From Falsiroseomonas oleicola (GTDB lineage: Bacteria; Pseudomonadota; Alphaproteobacteria; Acetobacterales; Acetobacteraceae): a stretch of 64,000 bases of DNA. Positions 22,446-38,286 of the stretch are shown piece after piece. The number at the start of each line of letters is the position of its first letter. Within the stretch, counting starts at the first letter, position 1. The translations under genes and the position numbers were made by a program. The stretch lies in the NCBI RefSeq assembly GCF_019029495.1, contig NZ_JAERQM010000002.1, forward strand, positions 248,001 through 312,000, written 5' to 3'. The notes under the pieces are model-generated. The model saw only the letters and a list, made by a program, of their open reading frames with translations. It was not told the origin of the DNA and made no database searches.

Positions 22446-24082
22446 CGCCCGAAACACTGTCCATGCGCCTGCGGGACGGCGTGCGGCTGGATGCGGATGT
22501 CTGGCGCCCGGCGACGCCCGGCCCGCATCCCGTGCTGCTGATGCGCCAGCCCTATGGCCGGCGCATCGCCTCCACCGTCGTCTTCGTCCATCCCGCCTGG
22601 TACGCGGCCCAGGGCTATATCGTGGTGATCCAGGATGTGCGCGGCAGCGGCACCTCCGAGGGCCACTTCCTGGCCTATGACCGGGAGGCGGAGGATGGCG
22701 CGGAGGCCGTGGCCTGGGCCGCCACGCTGCCCGGATGCGACGGCCAGGTGGCGATGTATGGCTTCTCCTATCAGGGCGCCACGCAATTGCTGGCGCTGTC
22801 GCGGGGGCCGGCGGCGCTGCGGGTGATGTCGCCGGCGATGGCGAGCTGGGAGCTGTATGGGGAGAAGGCGCGCGACAAGGGGGCCTTCCTGCTCGCGGGC
22901 AATGCCTATTGGGCGGCGCAGATGGGCGCGGCGCAGGCGCGGCGGGCCGGGGATGCGGCGGCCTATGCGGAACTGGCGGCGGCGGGGGCCGAGATGCTGG
23001 CCGGGCCTGTGCCGGCGGCGCCCGCCGTGCTGCAAAAGCATGCGGGGCTGCACCACTACGCCACCTGGCGCGATGCGCCGGCCGAGGACGGCTATTGGCA
23101 ACGCGCCTCCCCGGTCCAAGCCATTGGCGCGACGCGTGACGTGATACGGCCGGATGTGCCGGCGCTCTGGGTCGGGGGGTGGTTCGACTATCACCTGGAC
23201 GGGACGCTCGCGGGGTATCGGGCGCTGTCGCGGGGCGGTGCGGATCACTGGCTGATGATCGGGCCCTGGCCGCATCTGGCCTGGTCGCCCGTTGGTGCCG
23301 GCGCGGATTTCGGGCCGGCGGCGCTGTCCGATGTGGATGCGCTTCAGGTGGCATTGTTCGACCATGTGCTGAAGGGCGCGCCGCTGACCGGCTGGATGGC
23401 GGCCTCCCGCGTGCGGCTGTTCGATCTCGGCCTGCGCGCCTGGCGCGGATTCGCGGCGCTGCCGGAGCCGGAGATGCGGCCGTTGTTCCTGGCCGGCGAT
23501 GGCCGTGCGGCGGTGCGGGATGGCGGCCTGACAGCGGCGGCGCCGGAGGCCGCGCACTGGGAACACGTCACCCACGACCCCTGGCGCCCCGTGCCGGCGC
23601 TCGGCCTGCATCACGGCGGCGCCGCCTGGCGTGACCGGGCGGAGGTGGATGCGCGCTTCGACGTGCTGGCCTTCACCACCGAACCGCTGACCGCGCCGCT
23701 CGATCTGGTGGGGGAGTCGGAACTGGTCGCCGAGGTGCGGGCCAATGCGCCGAGCTTCGACCTGAACGCCACCCTGTCGCTGGTGACGGCGGAGGGGCGA
23801 AGTTACGCCCTGTCCCAGGCCCATGCCGTGCTGTCCCGCGGCATGGTGCGGCTGAAGCTGCGCGCGCTGTGCATCACCCTGGCGCCGGGCGACCGTCTGC
23901 GGATTTCCCTGGCCGGCGCGTGCTTCCCCGCCTACCCGGTCAATCCCGGCACCGGCACCGATCCGCGCCATGCGACGGGGGCGGAGGCGCTGCCGATCAC
24001 GCTTTCGGTGCGCTGTGGCGGGGCGGCGCCGGCGCGGCTGCTGCTGCCGGTACTGAGCGTGTCATCGGCAGCGCCAGGGTGA
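22442..24082 (+). CDS. CocE/NonD family hydrolase
   Basis: Serine hydrolase or X-Pro dipeptidyl-peptidase-fold acylase of 546 residues. The N-terminal alpha/beta domain has RDGVRLDADVWRP, the VIQDVRGSGTSEG stretch and nucleophile GFSYQG with Ser109. The Asp/His of the triad are likely in the WVGGWFDYHLDG and PWPHLAWS segments. The C-terminal jelly-roll is present (VGESELVAEVRANAPSFDLNATLSLV). GTG 22442 is chosen as start because GTGA overlaps the oxygenase stop, as in the rest of the operon; the ATG at 22463 is an alternative. Its last 86 bases overlap the 3' end of arsJ on the other strand. Related enzymes hydrolyse cocaine, glutaryl-cephalosporins or amino-acid esters. Confidence 0.88.
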   Translation: MTPETLSMRLRDGVRLDADVWRPATPGPHPVLLMRQPYGRRIASTVVFVHPAWYAAQGYIVVIQDVRGSGTSEGHFLAYDREAEDGAEAVAWAATLPGCDGQVAMYGFSYQGATQLLALSRGPAALRVMSPAMASWELYGEKARDKGAFLLAGNAYWAAQMGAAQARRAGDAAAYAELAAAGAEMLAGPVPAAPAVLQKHAGLHHYATWRDAPAEDGYWQRASPVQAIGATRDVIRPDVPALWVGGWFDYHLDGTLAGYRALSRGGADHWLMIGPWPHLAWSPVGAGADFGPAALSDVDALQVALFDHVLKGAPLTGWMAASRVRLFDLGLRAWRGFAALPEPEMRPLFLAGDGRAAVRDGGLTAAAPEAAHWEHVTHDPWRPVPALGLHHGGAAWRDRAEVDARFDVLAFTTEPLTAPLDLVGESELVAEVRANAPSFDLNATLSLVTAEGRSYALSQAHAVLSRGMVRLKLRALCITLAPGDRLRISLAGACFPAYPVNPGTGTDPRHATGAEALPITLSVRCGGAAPARLLLPVLSVSSAAPG

Positions 24083-25259
24083 CCAGCCAGCAGGCGATCA
24101 GCATGGCGGCGGAGCCGATCAGGCAGGCCGACAACCCGCCCCATTGATACAGCAGGCCGGAGAGCAGCGTGCCGGCGAAGCGGCCCACCGCATTGGCGGC
24201 GTAGTAGAAGCCCACATCCTCCGCCGCCTTCTCCGACCCCGCATAGGCCAGCACGAGATAGGAGTGGATCGAGGAATTCACCGCGAAGGCGAAGCCGAAG
24301 ACGCAGAGCCCAACGACCACCAGCAGATCGCCGCGCGGCAGGTCGGACCAGAGCGCGGCCAGGATCGCCAGCGGCACCAGCGCCAGCAGCAGCGACCACA
24401 GCCGTGCCGCCGGCACCTCGGTGGCCAGCCCATCCGTGCTGCGCCGGACCAGGGCGGGGGCTGCCGCCTGCACCAGGCCGTAGCCGATGGTCCAGACGGC
24501 CAGGAACCCGCCGACCATGGTGAAGGTCCAGCCGGAGGCATAGAGGAAGACCGGCAGCCCGACGACGAACCAGACATCCCGCGCGCCGAACAGCACCACC
24601 CGCGCCGCCGCCAGCAGATTCACGCCGTGGTTCTTGGCGAAGAGTTCCTTGGCGGATTTCGAGGCTTTCGCTCTGCCCATCAGCGGCGGCAGTGACAGCA
24701 GCACGCCCAGCAACACGCAGGCGAGCAGCGCCGCCATCAGCCAAAGTGCCCCGCGAAAACCCACGATCTCCAGAAGCAATCCGCCGAGGAAGAAGCCGAA
24801 TCCCTTCATCGCGTTCTTGCTGCCGGTGAACCAGGCGACCCAGCGGAACAATTGGCCAGAGGCATCACCGGCCGTGAGTTTGATCGCGGACTTGCTGGCG
24901 GTCTTCGTCAGGTCCTTCGCGACGCCACAGATACCCTGCGCCAGCACCACCCATGCAACGGAGGCCGCCATGCTCCAGCCTGGCGACAGCGCCGAGAGCA
25001 GCAGAAAGCCCGTGATCTGCGTGATAAGCCCGACGGCCAGCATCCGCGCGATGCCGAAGCGCGTGGCCAGCCAGCCACCGATCAGGTTCGCGCCGATGCC
25101 CGCCGCTTCATACAGCAGGAACAGGAAGGCCAGCGTGAAGGGCGAAAAACCGAGGCGGAAAAAATGCAGCAGCACCAGCATCCGCAAGGCGCCATCCGTC
25201 AGGGTGAAGCCCCAATAGGCGGCCGTGACGATGGTGTAGTTGCGGGTGCCGGCATTCAC
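23997..25259 (-). CDS. arsJ: Organoarsenical efflux MFS permease ArsJ
   Basis: Inner-membrane exporter of 1-arseno-3-phosphoglycerate, the unstable product made by the partner GAPDH from arsenate. Exported product breaks down outside and releases arsenate. The protein has 420 residues and about 12 hydrophobic segments. The ArsJ signature region reads [20 protein letters not shown], with the [21 protein letters not shown] segment after it. Its start overlaps the GAPDH stop by four bases. It is the last gene of arsRC-gap-arsJ. The C-terminal tail ([19 protein letters not shown]) is low complexity and overlaps the CocE gene of the opposite strand by 86 bases. Confidence 0.95.
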
Positions 25260-26296
25260 AGCCCGACGCGCTCCATATGGATGGCGAGGTCGACCATGCG
25301 GCAGGCATAGCCCATCTCATTGTCATACCAGGCGTAGATTTTTGCCATGGTGCCGTTGGTGACCATGGTGCTCAGCCCATCGACGATGCTGCTGCGCGTG
25401 TCGCGGGCATAGTCGATGGAGACCAGCGGGCGCGATTCGAAACCCAGGATGCCGGCGAGCGGGCCGGCGGCGGCGGCGGCGAAGAGTTCGTTCAACTCCT
25501 CCGCCGTCGTGGCGCGTTGCAATTCGAAGACGCAGTCGGTGAGGGAGGCATTCAGCACCGGCACGCGCACCGCATGGCCGTTCAGCTTGCCCTTCAGCTC
25601 CGGATAGATCAGGGCGATGGCGGTCGCGCTGCCCGTGGTGGTGGGGGACAGCGACAGCATGGCCGAACGCGCGCGGCGCAGATCCTTGTGCGGCGCATCG
25701 ACCACCACATTGGTGTTGGTCGGATCGTGCAGCGTGGTGATCTGGCCATGCCGGATGCCGATCGCCTCATGCACCACCTTCACCACCGGGGCGAGGCAGT
25801 TGGTGGTGCAGGAGGCGGCGGTGACGATCGGGTGCAGCGACGGATCGTAGAGATGTTCGTTCACGCCGACGACGACGTTCAGCACGCTGTCGAATTTCAC
25901 CGGCGCCGCCACGATCACCCGCTTCGCGCCGCGGTCGAGATGGCCCTGCAGCGCCTCCGGCGTCAGGAACTTGCCCGAGCAATCCAGCACCACGTCGACG
26001 CCGTGATCGCCCCAGGGGATGTCGCCGGGCTTCGCATGTTCCGAAAAGCCGATGCGCTTGCCGCCGATATGCAGGGCATCGGCCTCCGCCGCGATGTCGG
26101 CGCGCCAGCGGCCCTGCACGGAATCGAATTCCAGCAGATGGGCGCAGGCGGCGACGCCGCCCTTCACCTCGTTCACATGCGCGATGTCCAGGCGGTTGCC
26201 GGCGCGCGGATCCTCCGGCTGCCGTTCCGCCGCGCCCATGGCCGCGCGCAAGGCGAGCCGCCCGATGCGCCCCATGCCATTGATGCCGATCCTCAT
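25256..26296 (-). CDS. ArsJ-associated glyceraldehyde-3-phosphate dehydrogenase
   Basis: NAD-dependent GAPDH of 346 residues that uses arsenate in place of phosphate to form 1-arseno-3-phosphoglycerate for export by ArsJ. The Rossmann motif [15 protein letters not shown] opens the protein, and the catalytic Cys163 lies in [11 protein letters not shown]. The NAD-site Asp is in the RLDIAHVNE region. A resistance role rather than glycolysis is inferred from its place between an ArsR-ArsC fusion and arsJ, with four-base overlaps on both sides. The [23 protein letters not shown] stretch is characteristic of the ars-linked branch. Confidence 0.93.
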
Positions 26297-27138
26297 GCGC
26301 CGGCGCTCGCCTGCGGCTGCGCCAGCTCATCCAGCCGGGCCTTCAGCGCGATGCGGTCCAGGGTGGCGAAGGGCAGGGCGGTGAAGATGCCGAGGCGCCG
26401 TTGCAGCGCGGCGTAAAGCTCGTTCAGCAGCGTCGCGCGTTCCGCCGCACTGCCGCTGAACTTCGCCGGGTCCGGCAGCGGCCAGGCGGCGGTCAGCACC
26501 GTCTCGCCGAAATCCGGGCAGGCCTGGCCGGCGAGCGTGTCGCACAGCGCAATGACGAAATCCATGCGCGGCGCGTCGGGCGCGGTGAATTCATCCCAGC
26601 TCTTGGACCGCAGGGCGGAGGTGTCGTGCCCCAGCGCCTTGAGCTGCTGGAGCACCTCCGGCAGCGGACCCTCCGTCGCCGGGTCGGACCCCGCGGAGAA
26701 GGCGCGAAAACGCCCCTGGCCGATCTTGTGCAGGATCGCTTCCGCCATGACGGAGCGCGCGGAATTTCGCGTGCAGAGGAACAGCACGTTGAAGACCTGT
26801 GTCATCGGCGGTGTCTCCGGCAGCAGTCTGTGAAGGTCGCCACAGCGCTCGGGCGCGCCGTTGCAGCAGGCCTCGGTCAGGAAACCGATCAACGCGCGCA
26901 GGCGGTCGATCTGGGCGGCATAGATCAGGCTGCGGCCCTGCCGCGTGGCGGCGACGAGCCCCGCCTGTTCCAGGGCGCGCAGATGGAAGGACAGGGTGGA
27001 GCCGGGCACGGAGAGGCGTTCCGCCAGCATGCCGGCCGCCACGCCCGAAGGCCCGGCCGCCAGCAGGGCCCGCATCAGATCCAGCCTTGTGCCCTGGCCG
27101 AGCGCCATGAAGGCGGTCGCCGCGTCCTCGATCTCCAT
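26293..27138 (-). CDS. ArsR-ArsC fusion: arsenic-responsive repressor plus arsenate reductase
   Basis: Two-domain protein of 281 residues. Residues 1-105 are an ArsR winged helix ([16 protein letters not shown] recognition region) with a likely As(III)-binding set of cysteines, Cys91-Cys92 and Cys99 ([13 protein letters not shown]). Residues 112-281 are a low-molecular-weight phosphatase-type arsenate reductase with the P-loop CTRNSAR (Cys122-Arg128) and the general-acid Asp in PLPDPAKF. An internal ATG (Met112) could start a separate reductase. It is first in the operon with GAPDH and arsJ, below a palindromic operator. Fusion of sensor and enzyme is known but uncommon. The reductase branch would make As(III), although no arsenite pump is in the window. 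Confidence 0.93.
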
Positions 27139-27203: not shown

Positions 27204-28250
27204 TCAACCGATCTCGGCCACGGCAGCCCGCGCCGCCCGGGTCACGCCCGCCAGGGTGGCGGAAGCGCCGCCGGTCCAGTCGCCATAGCCGAGCAGCCAG
27301 AGGCGCGGCTCGGCCAGGGCCCGCCCGGTGGCGCTGACGCGGACGCGGCCATCGGCCTCCACCACGCCCAGCGGCGCCAGATGATCCAGCGCGGGCCGGA
27401 AGCCCGTGCACCAGATCAGGACATCGGCCGCCACGCGCGACCCATCCGCCCAGACCGCGCCCTCGGCCTCCAGCCTTGCGAAGGGCGGCAGGCTGTGCAG
27501 CACGCCGCGGGCGCGGGCTTCCATCACCGGCGGCACCATGACGATGTTGCCCAGGCCGCCGAGCGGCGGCGGCGGCGGCCTGCCTTCGCGTTCTGCCTGC
27601 CAGCGCGCGGTGGCGCGGTCGAACAGCACGCCGCCATCGACATCATCCGGCAGGAAGACGGGCGGGCGATCCGTCACCCAGGTGGCCTGCGCGGCGGTCC
27701 GGGAAACCTCGGCCAGGATCTGCGCGCCGGAATTGCCGCCGCCGACCACCAGCACGGACTTCCGGGCGAAATCCTCCGGCCGCCGGTAATGGGCCGAGTG
27801 GATCTGCGGGCCGGCGAAAACGTCCCGGCCGGGGATGTCCGGGATGAAGGGATGGCTCCAGGTGCCGGTGGCACTGATGACGGCCCTCGCCGTCCAGGCC
27901 GCGCCATCCGCCGCCTCCACCTGCAACCCCTCCGCCGCGCGGCGCACCGCCGTGACCTGCACCGGCCGCCGCACCGGCAGGGCGTAGCGGGCCTCATAGG
28001 CGGTGAGATAGGCGATGACGGCGTCGCGTGGCGGATAGCCACCGCCTGGCACCGCCGGCATCGGCCAGCCGGGCAGGGCGCTTTGCGCGGCGGGAGAGAA
28101 CAGGGTCAGCGAATCCCAGCCATGCCGCCAGGCACCGCCCGCGGCCTGCCCGGCATCGAGGATCTGGAAGCTTCGGTCCCCGCGTCGCAGGAAATAGCCC
28201 GCCGAAAGCCCGGCCTGGCCGGCGCCGATGACCAGCACATCCAGGTCCAT
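27204..28250 (-). CDS. arsO: ArsO-like flavin-dependent monooxygenase
   Basis: NAD(P)H/FAD-dependent monooxygenase of 348 residues found in arsenic operons. The FAD Rossmann motif is [15 protein letters not shown] at the N-terminus. A second dinucleotide motif, [17 protein letters not shown], lies near residue 167, with the FMO-like linker [13 protein letters not shown] between them, and a C-terminal WCTGFRP segment closes the FAD site. The start at 28250 (MDLDVLV) follows GGAG with an eight-base spacer and begins like the family; a longer form from 28286 is possible. It is upstream of and in line with the ArsR-ArsC operon. Its exact reaction on arsenic compounds is not settled. Confidence 0.88.
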
Positions 28251-28398
28251 CACGCGGTCTCCGGAAAGGGGCAGTTGGGTCTGCATTGGCTCATGAGTAT
28301 TCGCCCATCGTCGATTCACGACATGTGGGGCAGCCCTTCACCTGGTAACCCTGGGCCGGGCTATCCTCCCACGGCATGTGATGGGGCATTGAAGAAAA

Positions 28399-29091
28399 AT
28401 GGATTGGAAGACCGGCTGGCGCAGCTTCTACTACCAGGGCGCGCCGGCGGCACCGGACCCCGTGCTGGTCCCGGGCCGCGTGGCGCTGCTGGTGATCGAT
28501 GTCCAGGAAACCTATCTCGAACGCCCCGACCCGGCGTCGCTGACGGGTGAGGACCTCGCCCGGTATCACGCCTGGACGCCATTCCATGACCGCATGCACG
28601 GCACGGTGCTGCCCGCGATTCAGCGCCTGCTGGCGCGCTTCCGCGCCGATGGCCATCCGGTGTTCTTCGCCCGCATCGCCTGCCTGCGGCCGGATGGCGC
28701 GGACCGGTCGCTGAGCCAGAAGAAGCCCGGCTGGAACAACCTGCTGCTGCCGCATGATCGCGCCGATTCCGCGATCCATGCCTCCGTCGCGCCGCTGCCC
28801 GGCGAGATCGTGGTGACGAAGACCACCGATTCCGCGCTGACCGGCACGAATCTCCGCCTGATCCTGGCGAACATGGGCATCACCCATGTGGTCTGCGCCG
28901 GCATCTTCACCGACCAATGCGTCAGCTCCACCGTCCGCAGCCTGGCCGATGAAAGTTTCGACGTGATCGTGCTGGAGGATGCCTGCGCCGCCGGCAGCGA
29001 GGAGCTGCATCTGCGCGAGCTCGAAATCCTCAACCGCATCTATTGCGAGGTGATGCGCGTTGAGGATCTTCTCCGCTACTTGCCCGCCTGA
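28399..29091 (+). CDS. Isochorismatase-family cysteine hydrolase
   Basis: Cysteine hydrolase of 230 residues with the Asp34 (LLVIDVQETY), Lys141 (VVTKTTDSAL) and Cys174 (GIFTDQCVSST) catalytic triad. The GIFTDQCVSSTVRSLAD segment is the family signature. It is divergent from arsO across a 148-base region and convergent with the MFS gene, whose stop lies 16 bases inside its 3' end. The reaction could be hydrolysis of biuret, N-carbamoyl compounds or isochorismate; the triad alone does not decide, and no siderophore genes are near. A functional link with the ars genes is not evident. Confidence 0.85.
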   Translation: MDWKTGWRSFYYQGAPAAPDPVLVPGRVALLVIDVQETYLERPDPASLTGEDLARYHAWTPFHDRMHGTVLPAIQRLLARFRADGHPVFFARIACLRPDGADRSLSQKKPGWNNLLLPHDRADSAIHASVAPLPGEIVVTKTTDSALTGTNLRLILANMGITHVVCAGIFTDQCVSSTVRSLADESFDVIVLEDACAAGSEELHLRELEILNRIYCEVMRVEDLLRYLPA

Positions 29092-30278
29092 ACGGCCGCC
29101 TCCGGCGCCGCCCGCAGCACCAGCAGCGCCAGGCAGCCGGACAGGGCCAGCGCCATGGTGACGCTGAGCGCGGCCGCCACGCCGCCGCGTTCCAGCAGCA
29201 GCCCGAACAGGAAGGGCGATGCCGCCTGCAGGAACCGCGCGGGCGCCCCCAAAAGCCCCTGCCGCGCGCCATAGCCGGCGGGGCCAAACACGGCGAGCGG
29301 CAGCGTGCCCTTGGCGATGGTCATCACGCCATTGCCCATGCCGTGCAGCACCGCGAAGGCCGCCGCCGCGGGGCCACCGAAGCCGATCAGCACCAGGGCG
29401 CCCAGCGGATGCCCCAGCATCGCCAGCCGGGCCGAGACCAGCGGATGGAAGCGCCGCAGCAGCCCGAACTCCGCGACCCGCGCCGCCACCTGCGCCGGCC
29501 CGATCAGCGCCGCCGCGGCGACGGCGGTGGCGCCGCTGGCGCCCGCCGCCTGCAATAGCGCCGGCAGATGCGCCGCCATGGCACCGGCGATGAACCAGCT
29601 TCCGGCGAAGACGAAGGCCAGCAGCGGCATGGCGAGGCGGCCGGGTGCCGGCGGCGCGTCCTCCGCCATCGCCGCCTTGCGTTCCGGCGGCGGGGCCGGG
29701 GGCACCAGCAGCCGGTTCAGCGGCAGGCCGATCAGCAGATGCAGCGCCGCCCAGCCGAGGCAGGCGCCGCGCCACCCGAACGCCTCCGCCAGCAGCGCCG
29801 AGACGGGCCAGCCCACCGTGCTGGCGAAGCCGGCGATCAGCGTGATGCCGGTGATCGGTCCCCGCGCCGCCCTGCCATACAGCCCCGCCAGCGTGGCGAA
29901 GGCCGCGTCATACAGCCCCATCGCCATGCCGATGCCGAGCACGCACCAGGCCGCCGCCATGCTCCAAGGCCCCTGCGCCAGGCCGAGCGCCACCAGCCCC
30001 AGCGCCAGCACCAGGTTGGAGGCGGTGAGCATGCCGCGCCCGCCCTTGGTATCGATCACCCGCCCCACCACCGGCCCCAGCACGGCAGAGAGCATCAGCG
30101 CAGCGGAGAAAGCCCCAAAGACCCAGGCGGTCGAAATACCGAATTCCCGCGCCATCGGCGCCGCCAGGATCGCCGGCAGGTAGTAGGAGGAGGCCCAGGC
30201 CAGCGTCTGCGACGTGCCGAGGGCGATGACAACGCGTCTTGCGCCCCTGGGGGCTCCGGCGGGCGCCACCTCGCTCAT
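29076..30278 (-). CDS. MFS permease, third gene of the PadR-flavoprotein-MFS module
   Basis: Inner-membrane transporter of 400 residues with about 12 hydrophobic segments. The MFS motif between helices 2 and 3 reads GPVVGRVIDTKGGRG, and the first helices (SQTLAWASSYYLPAIL) are typical of the oxalate/formate-antiporter-like branch. It starts within the stop of the flavoprotein gene (ATGA), so it is translationally coupled to it. Its 3' end overlaps the isochorismatase-like gene by 16 bases on the other strand. By context it exports a product of the flavoprotein; candidates are a thiol-reactive metalloid species or an oxidised xenobiotic. Its upstream extension to 30395 is Arg-rich and rejected. 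Confidence 0.85.
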   Translation of the reverse strand: MSEVAPAGAPRGARRVVIALGTSQTLAWASSYYLPAILAAPMAREFGISTAWVFGAFSAALMLSAVLGPVVGRVIDTKGGRGMLTASNLVLALGLVALGLAQGPWSMAAAWCVLGIGMAMGLYDAAFATLAGLYGRAARGPITGITLIAGFASTVGWPVSALLAEAFGWRGACLGWAALHLLIGLPLNRLLVPPAPPPERKAAMAEDAPPAPGRLAMPLLAFVFAGSWFIAGAMAAHLPALLQAAGASGATAVAAAALIGPAQVAARVAEFGLLRRFHPLVSARLAMLGHPLGALVLIGFGGPAAAAFAVLHGMGNGVMTIAKGTLPLAVFGPAGYGARQGLLGAPARFLQAASPFLFGLLLERGGVAAALSVTMALALSGCLALLVLRAAPEAAVQAGK

Positions 30279-31603
30279 GCCACGCCGCAGCAGGGCGCGG
30301 TGGCGGGAAGCGCCGGCTTTGGCGTGCAGCAACCGCCCTGCGGGGTTGCCGGCGTGCCGCAGGAGGCGGCCTCCGGCGCGCGATCCAGGCTGCACACGCC
30401 GGTCTCCGGCAGCACGAGTTCGACCCGCTGCGCGGCGGCCGTGTCGCCGGCCAGGTGGGCGGCGATGCTGCGCACCTGTTCATGGCCGGTGGCCAGCAGG
30501 AAGGTGGGCGCGCGGCCGTAGCTCTTCATGCCGGCGATGTAGAAGCCCGGCTCCGGCTGGCGCAGCTCCGCCTCGCCATGCGGGCGCACCGTGCCGCAGC
30601 TATGGTGGTTCGGGTCGATCAGCGGGGCGAGGGCGGGGGTCGCCTCCACCGCCGGGTCCAGATCCAGCCGGATTTCGCGCAGGAAGCCCAGATCGGGCCG
30701 GAAGCCCGTGGCGACGATGATGCGATCCGCCTGCACCGTCAGCGCCTGGCCGTCCTGCCGGCCGGTGATGGCCAGCGCGTCCCCCTGTTCGGCGATGCGG
30801 TCGATCAGGAAGGGGGCGAGGGCGGTCACCGCGCCGCTGTCCACCAGCGCCTGCGCCCGCCCACCCAGGGCACCGCGCGCCGCCAGCCCATCATTGGCGC
30901 CACCACCGAAATTCACCGCGCCGAGCGGCCGCCGAAAGGCCCAGAGGATGCGCGTGCCCGGCGACTGCCGCGCCAGCTCCGCCAGGTCGAGAATGGCATT
31001 CATCGCCGAATGTCCCGCGCCGACGACCAGCGTCGTGCGGCCCGCATGGTCTGTCCGCGACGTGCCGAGCACATCCGGAATGCCATAGGCGATGCGGCCG
31101 CGGTTCCGCGCCTCGCCCAGTGCCGGCATGCCATGGGCGCCGGCGGGGTTGGGGCTTGACCAGGTGCCGGTGCAGTCGATCACCGCCGCGGCCTCCATGG
31201 CCTCATCCTCGGCCAGATGCAGGATGAAGGGCGCCGCCGCGCGGTCCGCGCCATCCCGCAGCCGCCCGAGGTCGCGCCGCGCCACGCCGGTGACGCGCGC
31301 ATCTGTGCGGATGTCCCCGGCCAGGGCCTCGGCCAGCGGGTCGAGATACCGTTCCACCAGTTCGGCCCCGGTCGGATAGGCCTCCGGGTCCGGCGCCACC
31401 CAGCCGCGCGCGGCCAGCAATTCCGCCGCCGCCGTGTCGATGTTGTAGCGCCAGGGGGAGAACATGCGCACATGTCCCCAGTCGCGCACCGCCTGGGCAA
31501 TGCGCGGCCCGGCTTCCAGCACCAGCGGGCGCAGCCCGCGCGCCCGAAGCTGCGCGGCGGCGGCAAGGCCGATCGGGCCGGCGCCGATGATGGCGATGGT
31601 CAT
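30275..31603 (-). CDS. FAD/NAD(P)-dependent oxidoreductase with cysteine-rich C-terminal tail
   Basis: Flavoprotein of 442 residues. The FAD motif IIGAGPIGLAAAAQL starts at residue 5, the second dinucleotide motif LVVGAGHSAMNAILDL is near 192, and the IIVATGFRPDLGFL segment is near 302. These place it in the FMO/thioredoxin-reductase-like group. The last 45 residues are unlike standard family members: they contain seven cysteines in short clusters (GVCSLD, ASCGT, GGCCTP, APCCGVA), a likely binding site for a soft metal or metalloid. It overlaps PadR and MFS genes by four bases on each side. A substrate such as As(III), Sb(III), Se/Te or an organo-metalloid is inference. Confidence 0.85.
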   Translation of the reverse strand: MTIAIIGAGPIGLAAAAQLRARGLRPLVLEAGPRIAQAVRDWGHVRMFSPWRYNIDTAAAELLAARGWVAPDPEAYPTGAELVERYLDPLAEALAGDIRTDARVTGVARRDLGRLRDGADRAAAPFILHLAEDEAMEAAAVIDCTGTWSSPNPAGAHGMPALGEARNRGRIAYGIPDVLGTSRTDHAGRTTLVVGAGHSAMNAILDLAELARQSPGTRILWAFRRPLGAVNFGGGANDGLAARGALGGRAQALVDSGAVTALAPFLIDRIAEQGDALAITGRQDGQALTVQADRIIVATGFRPDLGFLREIRLDLDPAVEATPALAPLIDPNHHSCGTVRPHGEAELRQPEPGFYIAGMKSYGRAPTFLLATGHEQVRSIAAHLAGDTAAAQRVELVLPETGVCSLDRAPEAASCGTPATPQGGCCTPKPALPATAPCCGVA

Positions 31604-32007
31604 GTGCAGTCTCCGGGGGTCTTGCAGGGTTGGGCGAAGGCGCGGCCGGTATCGGTCAGCGCCGCGGTGGCCTCCATCCAGGCGTCCAGCGCCACGCGAA
31701 AGGCGGCGCGACCGCTGTCGGTCAGGGCATAGACGCGGCGCTGCCGGCCCTGCACCACCTCCTCCGCCACGGTCACGAAGCCACCGGCCTCGAATTCCCG
31801 CAGCACGGGGTAGATGGTGCCCTCGGTGGGGGAGCAGCAGCCGCCGGTCACCCGCTCCACCGCACGGGCCACGTCATAGCCATGCAGCGGCGCGTCGTGC
31901 AGCACCCGCAGGATGAAGAACTTTGACAATCCCATCTTGATGGTGCCGGACCAGTAGTCGCGGGCGCCATAGTCGATGCGGGGTGGGACGGGGCGGAGGT
32001 TGGTCAT
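31600..32007 (-). CDS. PadR-family regulator with paired cysteines
   Basis: Transcriptional repressor of 135 residues with the PadR winged helix: ILRVLHDAPLHGYDVARAVERV, then TEGTIYPVLREFEAGGFV, then RRVYALTDSGRAAF. Unusually, Cys57-Cys58 sits at the start of the recognition helix (TGGCCSPTEG), and Cys128 and Cys134 close the C-terminus (PCKTPGDCT). Such a set is suited to binding a thiophilic metal or metalloid and distorting the DNA helix. It is first in the operon with the Cys-tailed flavoprotein and MFS genes. The ATG at 32007 has no ribosome site and lies directly after an operator-like palindrome, which suggests a leaderless transcript. An internal ATG (Met25) is the alternative start. 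Confidence 0.86.
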   Translation of the reverse strand: MTNLRPVPPRIDYGARDYWSGTIKMGLSKFFILRVLHDAPLHGYDVARAVERVTGGCCSPTEGTIYPVLREFEAGGFVTVAEEVVQGRQRRVYALTDSGRAAFRVALDAWMEATAALTDTGRAFAQPCKTPGDCT

Positions 32008-32010
32008 GCG

Positions 32011-32028
32011 CCAAGGCTAATACCTTGG
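32011..32028 (-). promoter_or_regulatory. Operator-like palindrome over the padR promoter
   Basis: CCAAGG, six bases, CCTTGG form a perfect inverted repeat ending three bases before the padR ATG. On the minus strand the spacer reads TATTAG, a good -10 element, and TTGAGG lies 15 bases upstream (32038-32033). Transcription would then start almost at the ATG. A second palindrome, TCAAG-C-CTTGA (32040-32050), and a third, ATGAA-N6-TTCAT (32054-32069), lie just upstream. Autorepression by the PadR protein is expected. Confidence 0.6.
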
Positions 32029-32073
32029 ACGTCGATGCCTCAAGCCTTGATGTATGAAAATTCCTTCATCCGG

Positions 32074-35000
32074 TCAGGCCGGCGCGGTCACCCGGGGCAG
32101 CGGCCGGCGCCGCTTCGCCGCCATGCGCTCAAACGTCAGATAGACCGCCGGCGTGGTGTAGAGCGTCAGAAGCTGGGACAGGATCAGCCCGCCGATGATT
32201 GTGATGCCCAGCGGCTGCCGCAGCTCCGCCCCCGGCCCGGTGGCGATCGCCAGCGGGATGGCGCCGAACAGCGCGGCCAGAGTCGTCATCAGGATCGGGC
32301 GGAAGCGTTCGCGGCAGGCCTCCAGGATCGCCACCATGCCGCCCTCGCCGCCCTCGCGTTCATGGGCGAGGGCGAAATCCACCATCATGATGGCGTTCTT
32401 CTTCACGATGCCCATCAGCAGGATCACGCCGATCATCGCGATCACGCTGAACGGCGTATTGGTCGCCAGCAGCGCCAGCAATGCACCAATGCCCGCCGTC
32501 GGCAGGGTTGAGAGAATGGTCAGCGGGTGGATCAGGCTTTCATACAAGACGCCCAGCACGATGTAGATGGTGACCAGCGCCGCCAGGATCAGCAGCGGCA
32601 GGCCGCTCAGGAAGCTCTGGAAGCTGCGCGCATTGCCGGCGAATTCGCCCCGCACGCTGGCCGGCATCTGGATATCCAGCGCCGCCTGCTCGACGATCCG
32701 CGTCGCCTCCCCCAACTCCACCCCCTCGGCCAGCGAGAAGCTGATGCTGGCGGCCGGGAACAGGCCCTGATGGGTGATCGAGCGCGGCGCCGTGCTGCGT
32801 TCGAGCCGCACCAGCGACCCCAGCGGCACCGGCCCGTCGCGGCCGGGCACGAAGATGCCGGTAAGCTGGCCAGGGTCCTCCGTCAGCCGCGGATCGATCT
32901 CCAGGATCACCCGGTACTGGTTGCGGGTGCGGTAGATGGTGGAGACCTGGCGCTGCGCGAAGGCATTGTTCAGCGTCCCGCCCAGCGCGGAGATGGAAAC
33001 GCCGAGCCGCGCCGCCGCATCCCGGTCGATCACCAGGCGGGAGACGAGGCCGGTGCGTTCCTGGTCGGAGGAGACATCGACCACCTGCGGGATGCTGCGA
33101 AGCTGGTTCACCAGCCGCTCGCTCCAGGTGCCGAGTTCCTCCAGATCGGGGCTCAGCAGCACATATTGGTAATTCGCATTGCCCTGGCGGCCGCCGATCA
33201 TGATGTCGCTCTGCGCCCGCAGGAAGGTCTGCGCGCCGACGATGCGGCCCAGTGGCACACGCAGCCGGGCGATGACCTGGGCGGCGTTCATCCCGTCCCG
33301 CGCCGCCAGCGGCGTCAGCCCGACCTGCAGACGGATATTGCTGGAGCCGAAGAAGCCACCACCGCCGAGCGAGGCCGAGACATTCTCCACGGCCGGATCG
33401 GCGCGGATGATCTCCACCACCTGTTCCTGATAGGCGACCATCGCCTGGAAGGAGGTGTCCGGCTGGGCGATCACGGCGCCACTCAGCAGGTTGCTGTCCT
33501 GTTCGGGAAAGAAGGCCTTGGGCACTTGCATGTAGAGCCAGACGGTCAGCCCCACCAACCCGATGGTGCCAGCCACCGTCAGCCGCCGCCAGCGCAGCAC
33601 CATCACCAGGCTGCGCATATAGCCGGCGATGATCCGGTCCATTGCCGCCTCGAACTCCCGTCCGAAGCGGCCCGGCGGGCGCGACGTCTGGCCGGCCAGC
33701 AGCACGGCCAGCATCGGCGTGACGGTCAGTGAGATGACGGCGGAGATCGCCACGGCGATGGACAGGGTCGCGGCGAATTCGAAGAACATGCGGCCGACGA
33801 TGCCGCCCATGAACAGCAGGGGGATGAAGACGGCGATCAGCGAGAGGCTCATCGAGACCACGGTGAAGCCGATCTGCCGCGCGCCTTCCAGCGCCGCCTC
33901 CCGCGGCCGCAGCCCGCGTTCGGTCATCCGGGCCATGTTCTCGATCATGATGATGGCGTCGTCGACGACGAAGCCGACCGAGATGGTCAGCGCCATCAGC
34001 GACAGGTTGTTCAGCGAATAGCCCAGCATCCACATCACGCCGAGCGTTCCCAGCAGGGACAGCGGCACGGAGATTCCGGCGGCGATGATGGCGGAGGTGC
34101 GGCGCAGGAACAGTGCCACCACCAGCACCACCAGCACGATGCTGATGAGCAGCGTGTGCTGCACTTCCGCCACGCTGGCGCGGATCGTCTCCGACCGGTC
34201 GCGCATGATGGTGATGTCGATGCCGGCGGGGATCCAGCGGCCGAGGTCGGGCAGCAGGGCGCGGATGCCGTCCACCACCTCCAGCACATTGGCATCGGCC
34301 TGTTTGTAGACCGTCAGGATGATGGCGGGGCGGCCGTTATAGGAGCCGGATTGGCGCCGGTCCCGCGACCCGATATCCACCTGCGCCAGGCCGGACAGGC
34401 GGACGATGGCGCCATCCGCCTGGGTCACCACGATGTCGCCGAATTCCTGCGCCGTCACCAGCCGGTCATTCACCGCGATGGCGGCGGATTGCAGCGGCCC
34501 GTCGATCAGCCCGGTGGGCTGGGTGACATTCGCATTGGTGATCGCGGTGCGGATCTGGTCGAGCGAGACATTGGCCGCCGTCGCCGCCGCCGGATTGACG
34601 GCGACGCGGATCGCCGGCTGCTCGGCGCCGGCGATGCCCACCGTCGCGGTGCCGTTCACCTGGGCGAGGCGCGGCACCACCACGCTGTCCGCCGCATCAT
34701 AGATCTCGCCGGCCGTCAGCGTGTCCGAGGTCATCGCCAGGATCAGCACCGGCTGATCACCCGGGTTCAATTTGCGAAAACTCGGCTGGCTGGTGAGGCC
34801 GGAGGGCAGGTCGGCCTGCGCCGCGTTGATCGCCGCCTGCACATCCCGCGCCGCCGATTCGATGGAGCGCGACAGATCGAACTGCAGGATGATCCGGGTG
34901 GAGCCGAGCGAGGAGCTGGAGGTCATCTCGCTGATGCCCGGAATCTCGCCCAGCTTGCGTTCCAGTGGCGCGGCGACGGACGACGCCATGATCGCCGGAT

Positions 35001-35163
35001 CGGCGCCGGACTGGCTGGCGGTGACCGCGATGGTCGGGAAATCCACTTTCGGGAGTGGCGCCACCGGCAGGTCGAAATAGGCAACCAGCCCGGCCAGGGC
35101 CAGGCCGATGGCCATCAGCGTGGTGCCGATGGGGCGCGCAATGAAGGGGGCGGAGATCGACAT
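32074..35163 (-). CDS. mdtC: RND efflux pump permease, MdtC-like
   Basis: Inner-membrane proton-driven pump subunit of 1029 residues, the HAE1/AcrB type. Paired Asp in TM4 (VGFVVDDAIIMIENM) carry protons, and the N-terminal MTSSSSLGSTRIILQFDLSRSIE stretch closely resembles MdtC. It is the second pump subunit of an MdtABC-type heterotrimer and acts with the MdtB-like protein, adaptor and NodT channel. It lies three bases after the mdtB stop and is the last gene of the operon. Substrates of this class include bile salts, novobiocin and flavonoid-like compounds; the local substrate is unknown. Confidence 0.92.
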   Translation of the reverse strand: MSISAPFIARPIGTTLMAIGLALAGLVAYFDLPVAPLPKVDFPTIAVTASQSGADPAIMASSVAAPLERKLGEIPGISEMTSSSSLGSTRIILQFDLSRSIESAARDVQAAINAAQADLPSGLTSQPSFRKLNPGDQPVLILAMTSDTLTAGEIYDAADSVVVPRLAQVNGTATVGIAGAEQPAIRVAVNPAAATAANVSLDQIRTAITNANVTQPTGLIDGPLQSAAIAVNDRLVTAQEFGDIVVTQADGAIVRLSGLAQVDIGSRDRRQSGSYNGRPAIILTVYKQADANVLEVVDGIRALLPDLGRWIPAGIDITIMRDRSETIRASVAEVQHTLLISIVLVVLVVALFLRRTSAIIAAGISVPLSLLGTLGVMWMLGYSLNNLSLMALTISVGFVVDDAIIMIENMARMTERGLRPREAALEGARQIGFTVVSMSLSLIAVFIPLLFMGGIVGRMFFEFAATLSIAVAISAVISLTVTPMLAVLLAGQTSRPPGRFGREFEAAMDRIIAGYMRSLVMVLRWRRLTVAGTIGLVGLTVWLYMQVPKAFFPEQDSNLLSGAVIAQPDTSFQAMVAYQEQVVEIIRADPAVENVSASLGGGGFFGSSNIRLQVGLTPLAARDGMNAAQVIARLRVPLGRIVGAQTFLRAQSDIMIGGRQGNANYQYVLLSPDLEELGTWSERLVNQLRSIPQVVDVSSDQERTGLVSRLVIDRDAAARLGVSISALGGTLNNAFAQRQVSTIYRTRNQYRVILEIDPRLTEDPGQLTGIFVPGRDGPVPLGSLVRLERSTAPRSITHQGLFPAASISFSLAEGVELGEATRIVEQAALDIQMPASVRGEFAGNARSFQSFLSGLPLLILAALVTIYIVLGVLYESLIHPLTILSTLPTAGIGALLALLATNTPFSVIAMIGVILLMGIVKKNAIMMVDFALAHEREGGEGGMVAILEACRERFRPILMTTLAALFGAIPLAIATGPGAELRQPLGITIIGGLILSQLLTLYTTPAVYLTFERMAAKRRRPLPRVTAPA

Positions 35164-35166
35164 GGG

Positions 35167-38100
35167 CTATTCGGCCGGGGCCGGCGGGGCGGCGCGATGG
35201 CCCAGCCGCTGTGCGCGGCTGCGGATCGCCTCCATCGCCAGGTAGATGACCGGCGTGGTGTAGAGCGTGATGACCTGGCTCAGCAGCAGCCCGCCGATGA
35301 CCGAAACCCCGAGCGGCAGCCGCAGCTCCGACCCCGCGCCGCTGCCCAGCACCAGCGGCAGCGCGCCCAGCAGGGCCGCCATGGTGGTCATCATGATCGG
35401 CCGGAAGCGCAGCAGGCAGGCCTCCCGGATCGCGTCGCGCGGCGTCATGCCGTGCTCGCGCTGCGCCTCCAGCGCGAAGTCGATCATCATGATGGCGTTC
35501 TTCTTGACGATGCCCATCAGCAGCACGATGCCGATCATGCCCACCACCGACAGGTCCAGCCCGAACAGCTCCAGCCCCAGCAGCGCGCCGATGCCGGCGG
35601 AGGGCAGGGTGGACAGGATGGTGATGGGGTGGATGACGCTTTCGTAAAGCACGCCCAGCACGATGTAGATGACGATGATCGCCGCCAGGATCAGCCAGCC
35701 CTGGCCGGCCAGCGACCGGGTGAATTCCGCCGCGTCGCCACCGAAACTGCCCGCCATGGAATCCGGCAGGCCGAGCCCGGCCTGCGCCGTGCGGATCGCC
35801 TCCAGCGCGCCGCCCAGGGATGCGCCGGGGGCCAGGTTGAAGCTGAGCGTCACCGCCGGGAACTGGTCCTGCCGCGTGATGGTCAGCGGCGCCCGGCCCC
35901 GGGTGATGGTGGCAATCTCCGCCAGCGGGATCTGCGGCGCGATGGTGGCGCCGGCGGCCGATCCGGTGACGCGCAGCAGGCCGATGGCGGCCGGGTCATT
36001 GGCCTGGGCCGGATCGGCTTCCAGCACCACGCGGTACTGGTTGTTCTGCGCATAGATGGTGGAGATCTGGCGCTGGCCGAAGGCGTTGTACAGCGTGTCG
36101 TCCACCGCCTGCATGGTCACGCCCAGCCGCGCCGCGCGCAGGCGGTCGACCTGGACCTGTACGCGCAGCCCATCCTCCCGCTGGTCGCTGCCGACATCGC
36201 GCAGCTCCGGCAATTGGCGCATCGCCGCCAGCATGCGCGGCGCCCATTCGGCGATCAGCGCCGCATCGCTGTCCATCAGCGTGTACTGATACTGGGTGGA
36301 GGACGGGCGGGTGCCGATCTGGATGTCCTGCACCGGCTGCATGTAGATCTCGATGCCGGGAATCTCGGCAAGGCGCGGGGACAGCCGCGCCATGATGGCG
36401 GAGACGCCGTCGCTGCGTTCCGCGCGCGGCCGCAGCACCGCGGTCAACCGCCCGGTGTTCTGCGCCGCATTCACCGTGCCGGCGCCGGCGACGGAGGTCA
36501 CGGCGATCACATCCGGATCGGCCTGCGCCACCTCCGCCACCTGCCGCTGCAATTCGGACATGCGGGCGAAGGAGACGTCCTGCGGCGCCTCGGTGGTAAT
36601 CGTAATCAGGCCGGTATCCTGAAGGGGAAGAAAGCCCTTCGGCATGACGACGTAGAGGCCCACCGTGCCGGCCACGGTCAGGGTCGCCAGCACCAGCATC
36701 AACCCCTCCCGCGCCAGGGCCATGTCCAGCGTGCGCGCATAGCCGCGGCGCATCGCCTCGAACCCCCGCTCGAACAGGTCGGAGATGCGGCCGGGCCTGT
36801 CTTCCCCATGCGGGCGCAGCAGCAGCCCGCACATCATCGGGGTGAGGGTCAGCGACACCACCATGGAAACCAGCACGGAGATGGTCAGCACCATGGCGAA
36901 TTCGCGGAACAGCCGGCCGACCACGCCCTCCATGAACAGCAGCGGGATGAAGACCGCGACCAGCGACAGGGTCAGGGAGACGATGGTGAAGCCGATCTGC
37001 TTCGCACCCTCATAGGCGGCCTGCAGGGGCTTCTTCCCCTCCTCGATCATGCGGACGATGTTCTCGATCATGACGATCGCATCATCCACCACGAAGCCCG
37101 TCGCGATGACCAGGGCCATCAGCGAGAGGTTGTCCATGGAATAGCCGAGCAGCGCCATGATGCCGAAGGTGCCGATGATGGACAGCGGCAGCGCCACGCC
37201 GGGCACGATGGTGGCCCGCAGGGTGCGCAGGAACAGGAAGATCACCGCCACCACCAGCAGGATGGACAGCACAAGGGTGAGCTGCACCTCATGCACCGAG
37301 GCGCGGATCGTCTCCGTCCGGTCGGAGACGACGGAAAGCTCCATCCCCGCCGGCAAGGCGCGTTGCAACCCATCGAGCTGGCCGCGCAGCGCTTCGACCG
37401 TGGCGACGATATTGGCGCCGGGCTGGCGCTGCACATCCAGCAGCACCGCGGGGCGGCCGTTGAACCAGGCCGCCGTCAGCGTGTTCTCCAGCCCCTCCAC
37501 CGCCACACCGACATCGCGCAGCCGCACCGGAGCTTCATCCCGCCAGGCGATGATGAGGTCCTCGAAGCCCGCGATGGTGGTGATCTGGTCGTTCGCCATG
37601 ACGGCGGAGGCCTGCAGCGGCCCGTTCACCGAACCCTTGGCGCCGGCGACATTGCCGGCGGTGACGGCGCTGCGCACCGCCTCCATCCCGATGCCATAGG
37701 CGGCCAGCCGGCGCGGATCGACCTGCAGCCGCACCGCCGGGCGCATATTGCCCTGCACCGCGACGCGGCCGACGCCGCCCACCTGCGCCAGCCGCTGCGC
37801 CAGCAGCGTGTCGACGATATCCGACATGCGGGAGACCGGCAGCGTCTCACTGGTCAGCGCCAGGGTCAGGATCGGCGGGTCGGCCGGGTTCACCTTGGCA
37901 TAGGTCGGCGGGTAGGGAAGGGTGGAGGGCAGGGTGCCGCGCGCGGCATTGATCGCCGCCTGCACATCCTGCGCCGCGTCGTCGATGTCCCGGTCCAGGT
38001 TGAACTGAAGCGTGATGCGGCTGACCGAGGGCCCGCTGACCGAGACCATCTCCGCCAGCCCGGCGATCTGCGCCAATTGCCGCTCCAGCGAGGCGGTGAC

Positions 38101-38286
38101 CAGCACCGCGATCGTCTCGGGCGAGGCCCCCGGAAGCTGCGTCGTCACCTGGATGGTGGGAAAATCCACCTCCGGCAGCGAGGACACGGGCAGGCGCATG
38201 TAGCCATAGAGGCCGGTCAGCAGCACCGCGATGGCCAGCAGCGCGGTTGCGACCGGCCGCGCGATGAAGGGGGCGGAGATGTTCAC
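35167..38286 (-). CDS. mdtB: RND efflux pump permease, MdtB-like
   Basis: RND permease of 1039 residues. The N-terminus (FIARPVATALLAIAVLLTGLYGYMRLPVSSLPEVDFPTIQV) and the KVNPADPPILTLAL stretch are those of MdtB. The TM4 pair ATGFVVDDAIVMIENI is intact. In MdtABC pumps the MdtB subunits contribute proton translocation and one MdtC subunit binds the drug. Four-base overlap with the adaptor gene shows tight coupling. It is very similar in length to its partner, so both should be functional. Confidence 0.93.
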   Translation of the reverse strand: MNISAPFIARPVATALLAIAVLLTGLYGYMRLPVSSLPEVDFPTIQVTTQLPGASPETIAVLVTASLERQLAQIAGLAEMVSVSGPSVSRITLQFNLDRDIDDAAQDVQAAINAARGTLPSTLPYPPTYAKVNPADPPILTLALTSETLPVSRMSDIVDTLLAQRLAQVGGVGRVAVQGNMRPAVRLQVDPRRLAAYGIGMEAVRSAVTAGNVAGAKGSVNGPLQASAVMANDQITTIAGFEDLIIAWRDEAPVRLRDVGVAVEGLENTLTAAWFNGRPAVLLDVQRQPGANIVATVEALRGQLDGLQRALPAGMELSVVSDRTETIRASVHEVQLTLVLSILLVVAVIFLFLRTLRATIVPGVALPLSIIGTFGIMALLGYSMDNLSLMALVIATGFVVDDAIVMIENIVRMIEEGKKPLQAAYEGAKQIGFTIVSLTLSLVAVFIPLLFMEGVVGRLFREFAMVLTISVLVSMVVSLTLTPMMCGLLLRPHGEDRPGRISDLFERGFEAMRRGYARTLDMALAREGLMLVLATLTVAGTVGLYVVMPKGFLPLQDTGLITITTEAPQDVSFARMSELQRQVAEVAQADPDVIAVTSVAGAGTVNAAQNTGRLTAVLRPRAERSDGVSAIMARLSPRLAEIPGIEIYMQPVQDIQIGTRPSSTQYQYTLMDSDAALIAEWAPRMLAAMRQLPELRDVGSDQREDGLRVQVQVDRLRAARLGVTMQAVDDTLYNAFGQRQISTIYAQNNQYRVVLEADPAQANDPAAIGLLRVTGSAAGATIAPQIPLAEIATITRGRAPLTITRQDQFPAVTLSFNLAPGASLGGALEAIRTAQAGLGLPDSMAGSFGGDAAEFTRSLAGQGWLILAAIIVIYIVLGVLYESVIHPITILSTLPSAGIGALLGLELFGLDLSVVGMIGIVLLMGIVKKNAIMMIDFALEAQREHGMTPRDAIREACLLRFRPIMMTTMAALLGALPLVLGSGAGSELRLPLGVSVIGGLLLSQVITLYTTPVIYLAMEAIRSRAQRLGHRAAPPAPAE

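Follow-up and report, generated by a model that had tools for sequence, protein, structure and literature searches.

Introduction

Most arsenic resistance (ars) operons are reported to be under ArsR repressors with several different Cys sites: in the R773 ArsR the Cys cluster lies in the DNA-binding domain, the site of AfArsR consists of Cys95, 96 and 102, and in SpArsR two Cys suffice and methylarsenite (MAs(III)), not As(III), is sensed (available part of PMC11868830). Here we analyze a three-gene unit in 64,000 nucleotides of Falsiroseomonas oleicola DNA (contig NZ_JAERQM010000002.1, positions 248,001 to 312,000; this whole stretch is called the window below), in which a PadR-family regulator gene is followed by genes for a flavoprotein and a major facilitator superfamily (MFS) permease. 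The regulator resembles the ArsR types with three-Cys As(III) sites (R773, AfArsR and CgArsR) and the two-Cys SpArsR in having a winged helix, clustered Cys and a position before ars genes, but it belongs to another protein family (PF03551) with other Cys spacing and another operator, and its sensing function is putative. The order of the three genes is reportedly that of the arsV operons arsR-arsV-arsW of Paracoccus sp. SY and arsR-arsV-arsK of Ensifer adhaerens, namely regulator, flavoprotein and MFS permease. The regulator of those operons is an ArsR whose ECC site is C-terminal; in the window operon it is a PadR with a Cys-Cys pair.

Typical PadR proteins bind drug or phenolic ligands. Both Rv3488 of Mycobacterium tuberculosis (47.1 bits by profile) and LmrR share the PadR fold with the window protein, the structure matches having 28-30% identity; Rv3488, however, lacks Cys in the aligned stretch, and LmrR binds drugs, unlike the metalloid sensing proposed here. 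The closest PadR precedent found is ChrI of Bacillus cereus SJ1, a PadR-family gene in a chromate-induced operon with chrA, for which oxyanion binding was proposed via basic residues, not Cys, and whose partner is chrA (available part of PMC2936356). We argue below that the unit in the window is probably an arsV-arsW-type operon for trivalent (organo)arsenicals and antimonite, in which ArsR has been replaced by a Cys-bearing PadR. The novelty is the PadR regulator in ArsR's place; the enzyme and the pump match an already known pair.

Results

A sharply bounded PadR subfamily with an invariant Cys pair

The window PadR matches the PadR domain at 70.5 bits (Pfam cut-off 27), and no ArsR model of the ArsR/SmtB helix-turn-helix kind is found among its Pfam and NCBIfam matches at E 0.001. 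Its four Cys are at positions 57, 58, 128 and 134. In the AlphaFold2 model, which is a monomer, Cys57 and Cys58 are placed in the loop 55-61 immediately ahead of the recognition helix 62-74, and Cys128 and Cys134 in the less confident C-terminal end (block means of 76 for residues 121-130 and 59 for residues 131-135), in agreement with the Cys positions given by an earlier reading of the sequence alone (the first-pass annotation). The only other PadR-domain protein of the same genome has no Cys at the position of Cys57-Cys58.

We define the subfamily by GCC[ST]P-x-EG ahead of the recognition helix together with a palindrome before padR, and the window PadR shows both. When 249 genomes of the window's family (Acetobacteraceae) were searched with the protein, 37 places, distributed over 33 genomes, scored at least 169 bits and the next match at most 58 bits; the subfamily is sharply bounded. 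GCCSP-x-EG is present in all 37 places and in a copy on a Roseomonas mucosa plasmid (L009); the name carried by an annotated plasmid copy of the subfamily is only 'PadR family transcriptional regulator'. Copy L009 adjoins transposase genes, chrA and nickel/cobalt efflux genes, which suggests a mobile multi-metal region. A profile search of 385 genomes across the class (E 1e-20) found 11 places in 10 genomes, all of them with the Cys-Cys pair, and a scan of GTDB yielded 166 related stretches, the best 80 of which were analyzed as loci. Viral contigs scanned with PadR alone gave no relative, and a viral setting was dropped.

The family and class genome sets and the GTDB loci overlap partly, and the following counts are of the 92 distinct PadR sequences among 128 loci, with start codons of fetched loci picked by script and read as M. 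The Cys-Cys pair is present in 92 of 92 sequences and at least two Cys occur within the last 30 residues in 81, while the frequency of Cys outside these two regions is only 0.0021 per residue. The conservation of the pair is thus beyond chance, and conservation in homologs had been named beforehand as a test by the first-pass annotation. The tail is variable in length and letters; that CC, CxC or spaced Cys pairs are mostly retained in it nevertheless suggests a functional ligand. A few Cys-Cys PadR proteins (L085, L117, L129 and L079) are without tail Cys and, by analogy with SpArsR, might be natural methylarsenite-selective variants.

Linkage of padR to arsV

The flavoprotein gene (arsV, see below) directly follows padR in 35 of the 37 places of the family search, the exceptions being L059, where the MFS gene is next, and L069. 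Among the 80 GTDB loci, arsV starts at most 900 bases downstream of the padR stop in 77, an MFS gene is found within 3.5 kb in 54 and an additional ars gene recognized by a ten-query set is found within 5 kb in 30. In the family and class searches, many loci have arsO, arsRC, arsJ, acr3 or arsH in the neighborhood. The 4-base overlaps that the first-pass annotation reported between padR and the flavoprotein gene and between the latter and the MFS gene, all on the minus strand, are confirmed. The closest named relative among the fetched loci is Falsiroseomonas tokyonensis (93% identity in PadR and 87% in the flavoprotein). In L109 and L143 arsV is missing and an MFS gene comes after padR, and the palindrome is still found just after padR.

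Regulators have been exchanged before arsV

The flavoprotein was found in 18 of 398 surveyed genomes of the phylum, the window's own included. The gene directly upstream in the other 17 encodes an ArsR in 15 and a MarR-family protein in one (L188), and in the last (L183) none was recognized. A MarR-family gene is located upstream of arsV at L188:974-1420 and also, on a Cytobacillus firmus plasmid, at L192:2146-2595, where one further flavoprotein gene lies between the two; MarR may be a third regulator family serving this enzyme.

A tree of arsV with 65 rows, for which the PadR-linked rows were hand-thinned to 38 plus the window, requires 6 changes of the PadR label, compared with a mean of 20 for shuffled labels, and its starred branches force at least two. 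A single origin of PadR-linked arsV is rejected: in an approximately unbiased (AU) test on a quick tree of 46 rows (29 PadR-linked and 17 ArsR-linked; L011, L012, L183, L188, L192, L193 and others were dropped), the one-clade constraint had p-AU = 3.95e-5. It follows that PadR met arsV more than once or that ArsR displaced PadR more than once; in either case the regulators before arsV have been exchanged more than once. Three arsV rows match in separate pieces, of which L099 was excluded from the trees and the alignment, L136 was kept in the 65-row tree and alignment A3 but not in the AU test, and L151 was kept in all three; L118, which has masked stretches, was excluded from both structure alignments.

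A TBLASTN search of plasmids gave 133 records with relatives of the flavoprotein. Ten of them were examined, namely seven genera with the order ArsR-flavoprotein-MFS (Bosea, Shinella, Ensifer, Nitrobacter, Neotabrizicola, Hydrogenophaga and Streptomyces), Roseomonas mucosa, Cytobacillus and Cellulosimicrobium; in the last the flavoprotein gene adjoins an ArsR gene, but a GNAT gene is in the MFS place. Five of seven ArsR partners from named plasmids, all five alphaproteobacterial, bear a vicinal ECC pair at 91-92, with a third Cys at 97-98 in four of the five; the Hydrogenophaga partner has no such pair, and the Streptomyces ArsR has Cys elsewhere (N-terminal CC and CVC). The ArsR-ArsC fusion in the window itself has C91, C92 and C99, in an arrangement similar to the As(III) site of the AfArsR type. 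The main reason for proposing metalloid sensing by the PadR is thus that PadR and ArsR proteins before the same enzyme often both bear a vicinal pair and a further Cys.

The enzyme and the pump

The flavoprotein matches Pyr_redox_3 (64.4 bits). An ArsO identity was rejected at 47.8 bits against the NF040505 cut-off of 425, which the true ArsO nearby passes (Table 1). Its predicted fold resembles YpdA-type reductases and also the SidA and DesB flavoenzymes; confidence in the model is low for the tail and for most of residues 301-341. It shares 51% identity with the flavoprotein encoded between arsR and an NCBI-named arsK on a plasmid of Ensifer adhaerens E-60. Close to these Ensifer genes is one whose annotation reads 'arsenate reductase (azurin) large subunit' and which we take to encode an arsenite oxidase. 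Members of the flavoprotein family are linked to arsR and an arsK/arsW-type MFS gene in ars loci, as expected of ArsV, and according to the available part of a review ArsV oxidizes methylarsenite and ArsW extrudes methylarsenate.

Eight Cys are present in the flavoprotein, six of them in the last 45 residues (404, 415, 425, 426, 438 and 439) and not seven, as had been counted earlier. An alignment of the window protein with 35 PadR-linked relatives shows no change at Cys336 or Cys404 and near-complete conservation of Cys415, 438 and 439. A reading of the Cys-rich tail as distinctive of the unit is rejected, as ArsR-linked flavoproteins also have such a tail, and among the 17 survey loci the last 60 residues contain 5-8 Cys in 15 and 3 Cys in the other two. 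The Cys tail is a general feature of the flavoprotein family.

The permease matches MFS_1 (61.7 bits) and is 60% identical to the arsV-linked MFS protein of Neotabrizicola (Paracoccaceae), where the gene order is arsR-flavoprotein-MFS, but only 31% identical to the Ensifer ArsK, which makes a pump of ArsW type likelier than one of ArsK type. Taken together, sequence similarity and gene order make it very likely that the enzyme-pump pair is of the arsV plus arsW type. A brand-new enzyme-pump module is rejected because the same pair recurs beside ArsR in Alphaproteobacteria, Betaproteobacteria and Actinobacteria. Of the earlier statement that no named system has this make-up, only the PadR in place of ArsR therefore stands, as the enzyme and pump match arsV and an arsW/arsK-type permease.

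A promoter block with a palindrome precedes padR

The block CTTGATGCATCGA-N3-TCAAGGTATAGNNT is found upstream of padR in all 88 distinct regions (87 of 88 in a leave-one-out test at 10 bits) and in none of 1760 shuffled controls, and in 74 of the 88 regions it ends 5-8 bases before the chosen start codon. It consists of a -35-like TTGAYG, 17 bases and a -10-like TANNNT, and the positions between the two that vary least (C8/G22, T10/A20 and G12/C18) are symmetric about position 15, which results in the palindrome ATRCATYRA-N3-TYRATGYAT. With at most 3 mismatches this dyad occurs in 59 of 80 padR upstream regions, in 59 of 68 gaps between padR and arsV and, over the 747,621 bases scanned, at 6 sites elsewhere. 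Four of these 6 are also just after padR (one in L109, one in L143 and two in L149); the reversed pattern has no site in the same 747,621 bases at this threshold. At 18 bits the block matrix recovers 79 of 80 main sites and after-padR sites in 48 loci, with none elsewhere, and upstream of six ArsR-linked arsV operons its scores are below zero. In the window there is no gap between padR and arsV, the genes overlapping, and two overlapping dyads are found upstream of padR; a slightly looser dyad pattern gives these two sites and one other place (2 mismatches) in the whole genome. Judged from the sequence pattern, a PadR dimer may repress its own operon via the palindrome.

Position of the operon in the window

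The coordinates are collected in Table 1. The adjacent arsJ/GAPDH/arsRC/arsO set seen by the first-pass annotation is real. Between it and the operon, an isochorismatase-like hydrolase gene (28399-29091, plus strand) is convergent with the MFS gene, and an isochorismatase-like gene whose protein is 89% identical also comes after the MFS gene in the Falsiroseomonas locus L103. Directly upstream of padR are two tandem genes for AcrB-type resistance-nodulation-division (RND) pumps (32074-38286, minus strand), and the padR promoter block is positioned just past the end of the nearer one.

Table 1. Features of the padR operon and the neighboring ars genes (window coordinates)
Feature	Position	Strand	Evidence
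padR, 135-aa PadR-family regulator	31600..32007	-	PadR Pfam match, AlphaFold2 model, Cys conservation
Codons of Cys57-Cys58 (GCCSPTEG), invariant pair	31834..31839	-	Computed from the PadR start at 32007
arsV-type NAD(P)H/FAD flavoprotein, 442 aa, Cys-rich tail	30275..31603	-	Pfam and homolog comparison
MFS permease of ArsW/ArsK kind, 400 aa	29076..30278	-	Pfam and identity to arsV-linked MFS
Conserved promoter/operator block: -35-like TTGAGG, 17-18 base spacer, weak -10	32015..32044	-	Stops 7 bases short of the padR start codon
Candidate operator dyad 1, 3 mismatches to ATRCATYRANNNTYRATGYAT	32020..32040	.	Pattern match
Candidate operator dyad 2, 1 mismatch, overlaps dyad 1 and -35	32035..32055	.	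Pattern match
arsO flavin monooxygenase (context)	27204..28319	-	529.8 bits, NCBIfam cut-off 425
ArsR-ArsC fusion with C91, C92 and C99 (context)	26293..27138	-	HTH_metalloreg cut-off passed by the regulator half
ArsJ-associated GAPDH (context)	25256..26296	-	NCBIfam cut-off passed
ArsJ organoarsenical efflux permease (context)	23997..25259	-	NCBIfam cut-off passed

Discussion

From these comparisons we infer repression, ligand, Cys site, oxidation and export as follows. In the resting cell, a PadR dimer would sit on one or two palindromes between and over the -35 and -10 and keep its own operon off. On entry, MAs(III), As(III) or Sb(III) would be bound by Cys57-Cys58 at the base of the recognition helix, and Cys128, Cys134 or both would supply the third ligand; binding would displace the recognition helix and lift repression. 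The flavoprotein would then use NAD(P)H, FAD and O2 to turn the trivalent into the pentavalent species, and this oxidized product would be exported by the MFS pump. It is likely that trivalent As or Sb is what the PadR senses, and with less assurance we favor Cys57-Cys58 plus the C-terminal Cys as the exact sensor site. The wider proposal, which we hold almost as firmly as the choice of ligand, is that the Cys-Cys PadR proteins form a class of metalloid-responsive repressors in their own right and are the first PadR thiol sensors of trivalent arsenicals or antimonite, that they evolved independently of ArsR, with the vicinal pair placed at the base of the recognition helix and a mobile Cys tail providing the third ligand, and that they traded places with ArsR at arsV more than once. 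The proposed thiol sensing in PadR is best read as convergent with that in ArsR.

Several observations weigh against this interpretation. No experiment was found that links any PadR of the subfamily to arsenic, and among the top-ranked matches of a literature search, judged by title and the start of the abstract and including few subscription papers, no arsenic-responsive PadR was found, which is weak evidence of absence. In 50 of the 80 GTDB loci no other ars gene was recognized within 5 kb by the ten-query set, some of these loci lying at contig ends. The GTDB scan was partly seeded with the Cys-Cys peptide and its loci are biased toward the pair, so that the search of 249 genomes is the fairer evidence of invariance; moreover, 5 of the 92 distinct PadR sequences lack the C-terminal Cys pair and 6 have a single Cys there. 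The ArsV identity leans on synteny, on the partners and on the 51% identity to the Ensifer gene, and for the pump an ArsK identity was dropped, its 227.2 bits being below the NF033733 cut-off of 400 (Ensifer ArsK scores 513). As for the operator, the dyad pattern was derived from the very loci used for counting; at 4 mismatches it is found in 76 of 80 upstream regions, in 63 of 68 gaps and at 23 sites elsewhere (control 1), and at 5 mismatches the numbers are 80 of 80, 67 of 68 and 117 (control 27); its base pairs show no covariation beyond column composition, and the -10 in the window is weak.

The same Cys could also serve a thiol sensor of redox state or electrophiles, in which oxidative, quinone or disulfide stress would lead to a disulfide or an adduct at the vicinal Cys, with the operon being a response to that stress. 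Vicinal Cys at the recognition helix could indeed switch through oxidation, and the closest flavoprotein folds include the bacillithiol disulfide reductase YpdA and thioredoxin reductases. We nevertheless consider a stress sensor unlikely, given that the same flavoprotein usually stands behind ArsR (15 of 17), that ECC is found in five of the seven plasmid ArsR partners with a third Cys in four of those, and that another ars gene is recognized near 30 of the 80 GTDB loci; metalloid binding would also account for three or four clustered Cys more readily than a simple disulfide switch does.

It is improbable that the regulator is a PadR of the usual kind, responsive to drugs or phenolics, with structural Cys and in control of arsV by chance: linkage to arsV, the Cys-Cys pair in every distinct sequence where Cys is nearly absent elsewhere outside the tail, and the tail pair mostly retained in spite of changes in length and sequence all speak against it, even though the best Foldseek matches of the PadR model are LmrR structures, several of them drug-bound (Rv3488 also matches). 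Still less probable is an operon for another soft element such as Cd, Hg, Se, Te or Bi. The PadR protein Rv3488 was solved in complex, presumably with cadmium, and the Roseomonas mucosa copy adjoins chrA and nickel/cobalt efflux genes. ChrI, furthermore, is a PadR gene inducible by chromate (available part of PMC2936356). However, the families of the enzyme and the pump are arsenic-linked, arsO, arsRC, arsJ, acr3 or arsH lie near many of the loci, and the Pfam and NCBIfam scans recognized no enzyme for Cd, Hg, Se or Te within the unit. The sequence of sensing, redox conversion and export of a thiophilic metalloid that the first-pass annotation envisaged is thus retained in its direction, with As or Sb favored by the partners and neighbors, while for Se, Te and Cd general thiol chemistry is the only argument.

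If the Cys-Cys PadR is indeed a sensor of trivalent arsenicals or antimonite, another protein family, with a thiol site and an operator of its own, would prove able to replace the sensor of the arsV pathway, and biosensors for arsenic or antimony would gain a new, compact component. The proposal further offers a function that can be tested for a PadR subfamily that is present in 33 of the 249 genomes of the family and in 166 stretches of GTDB.

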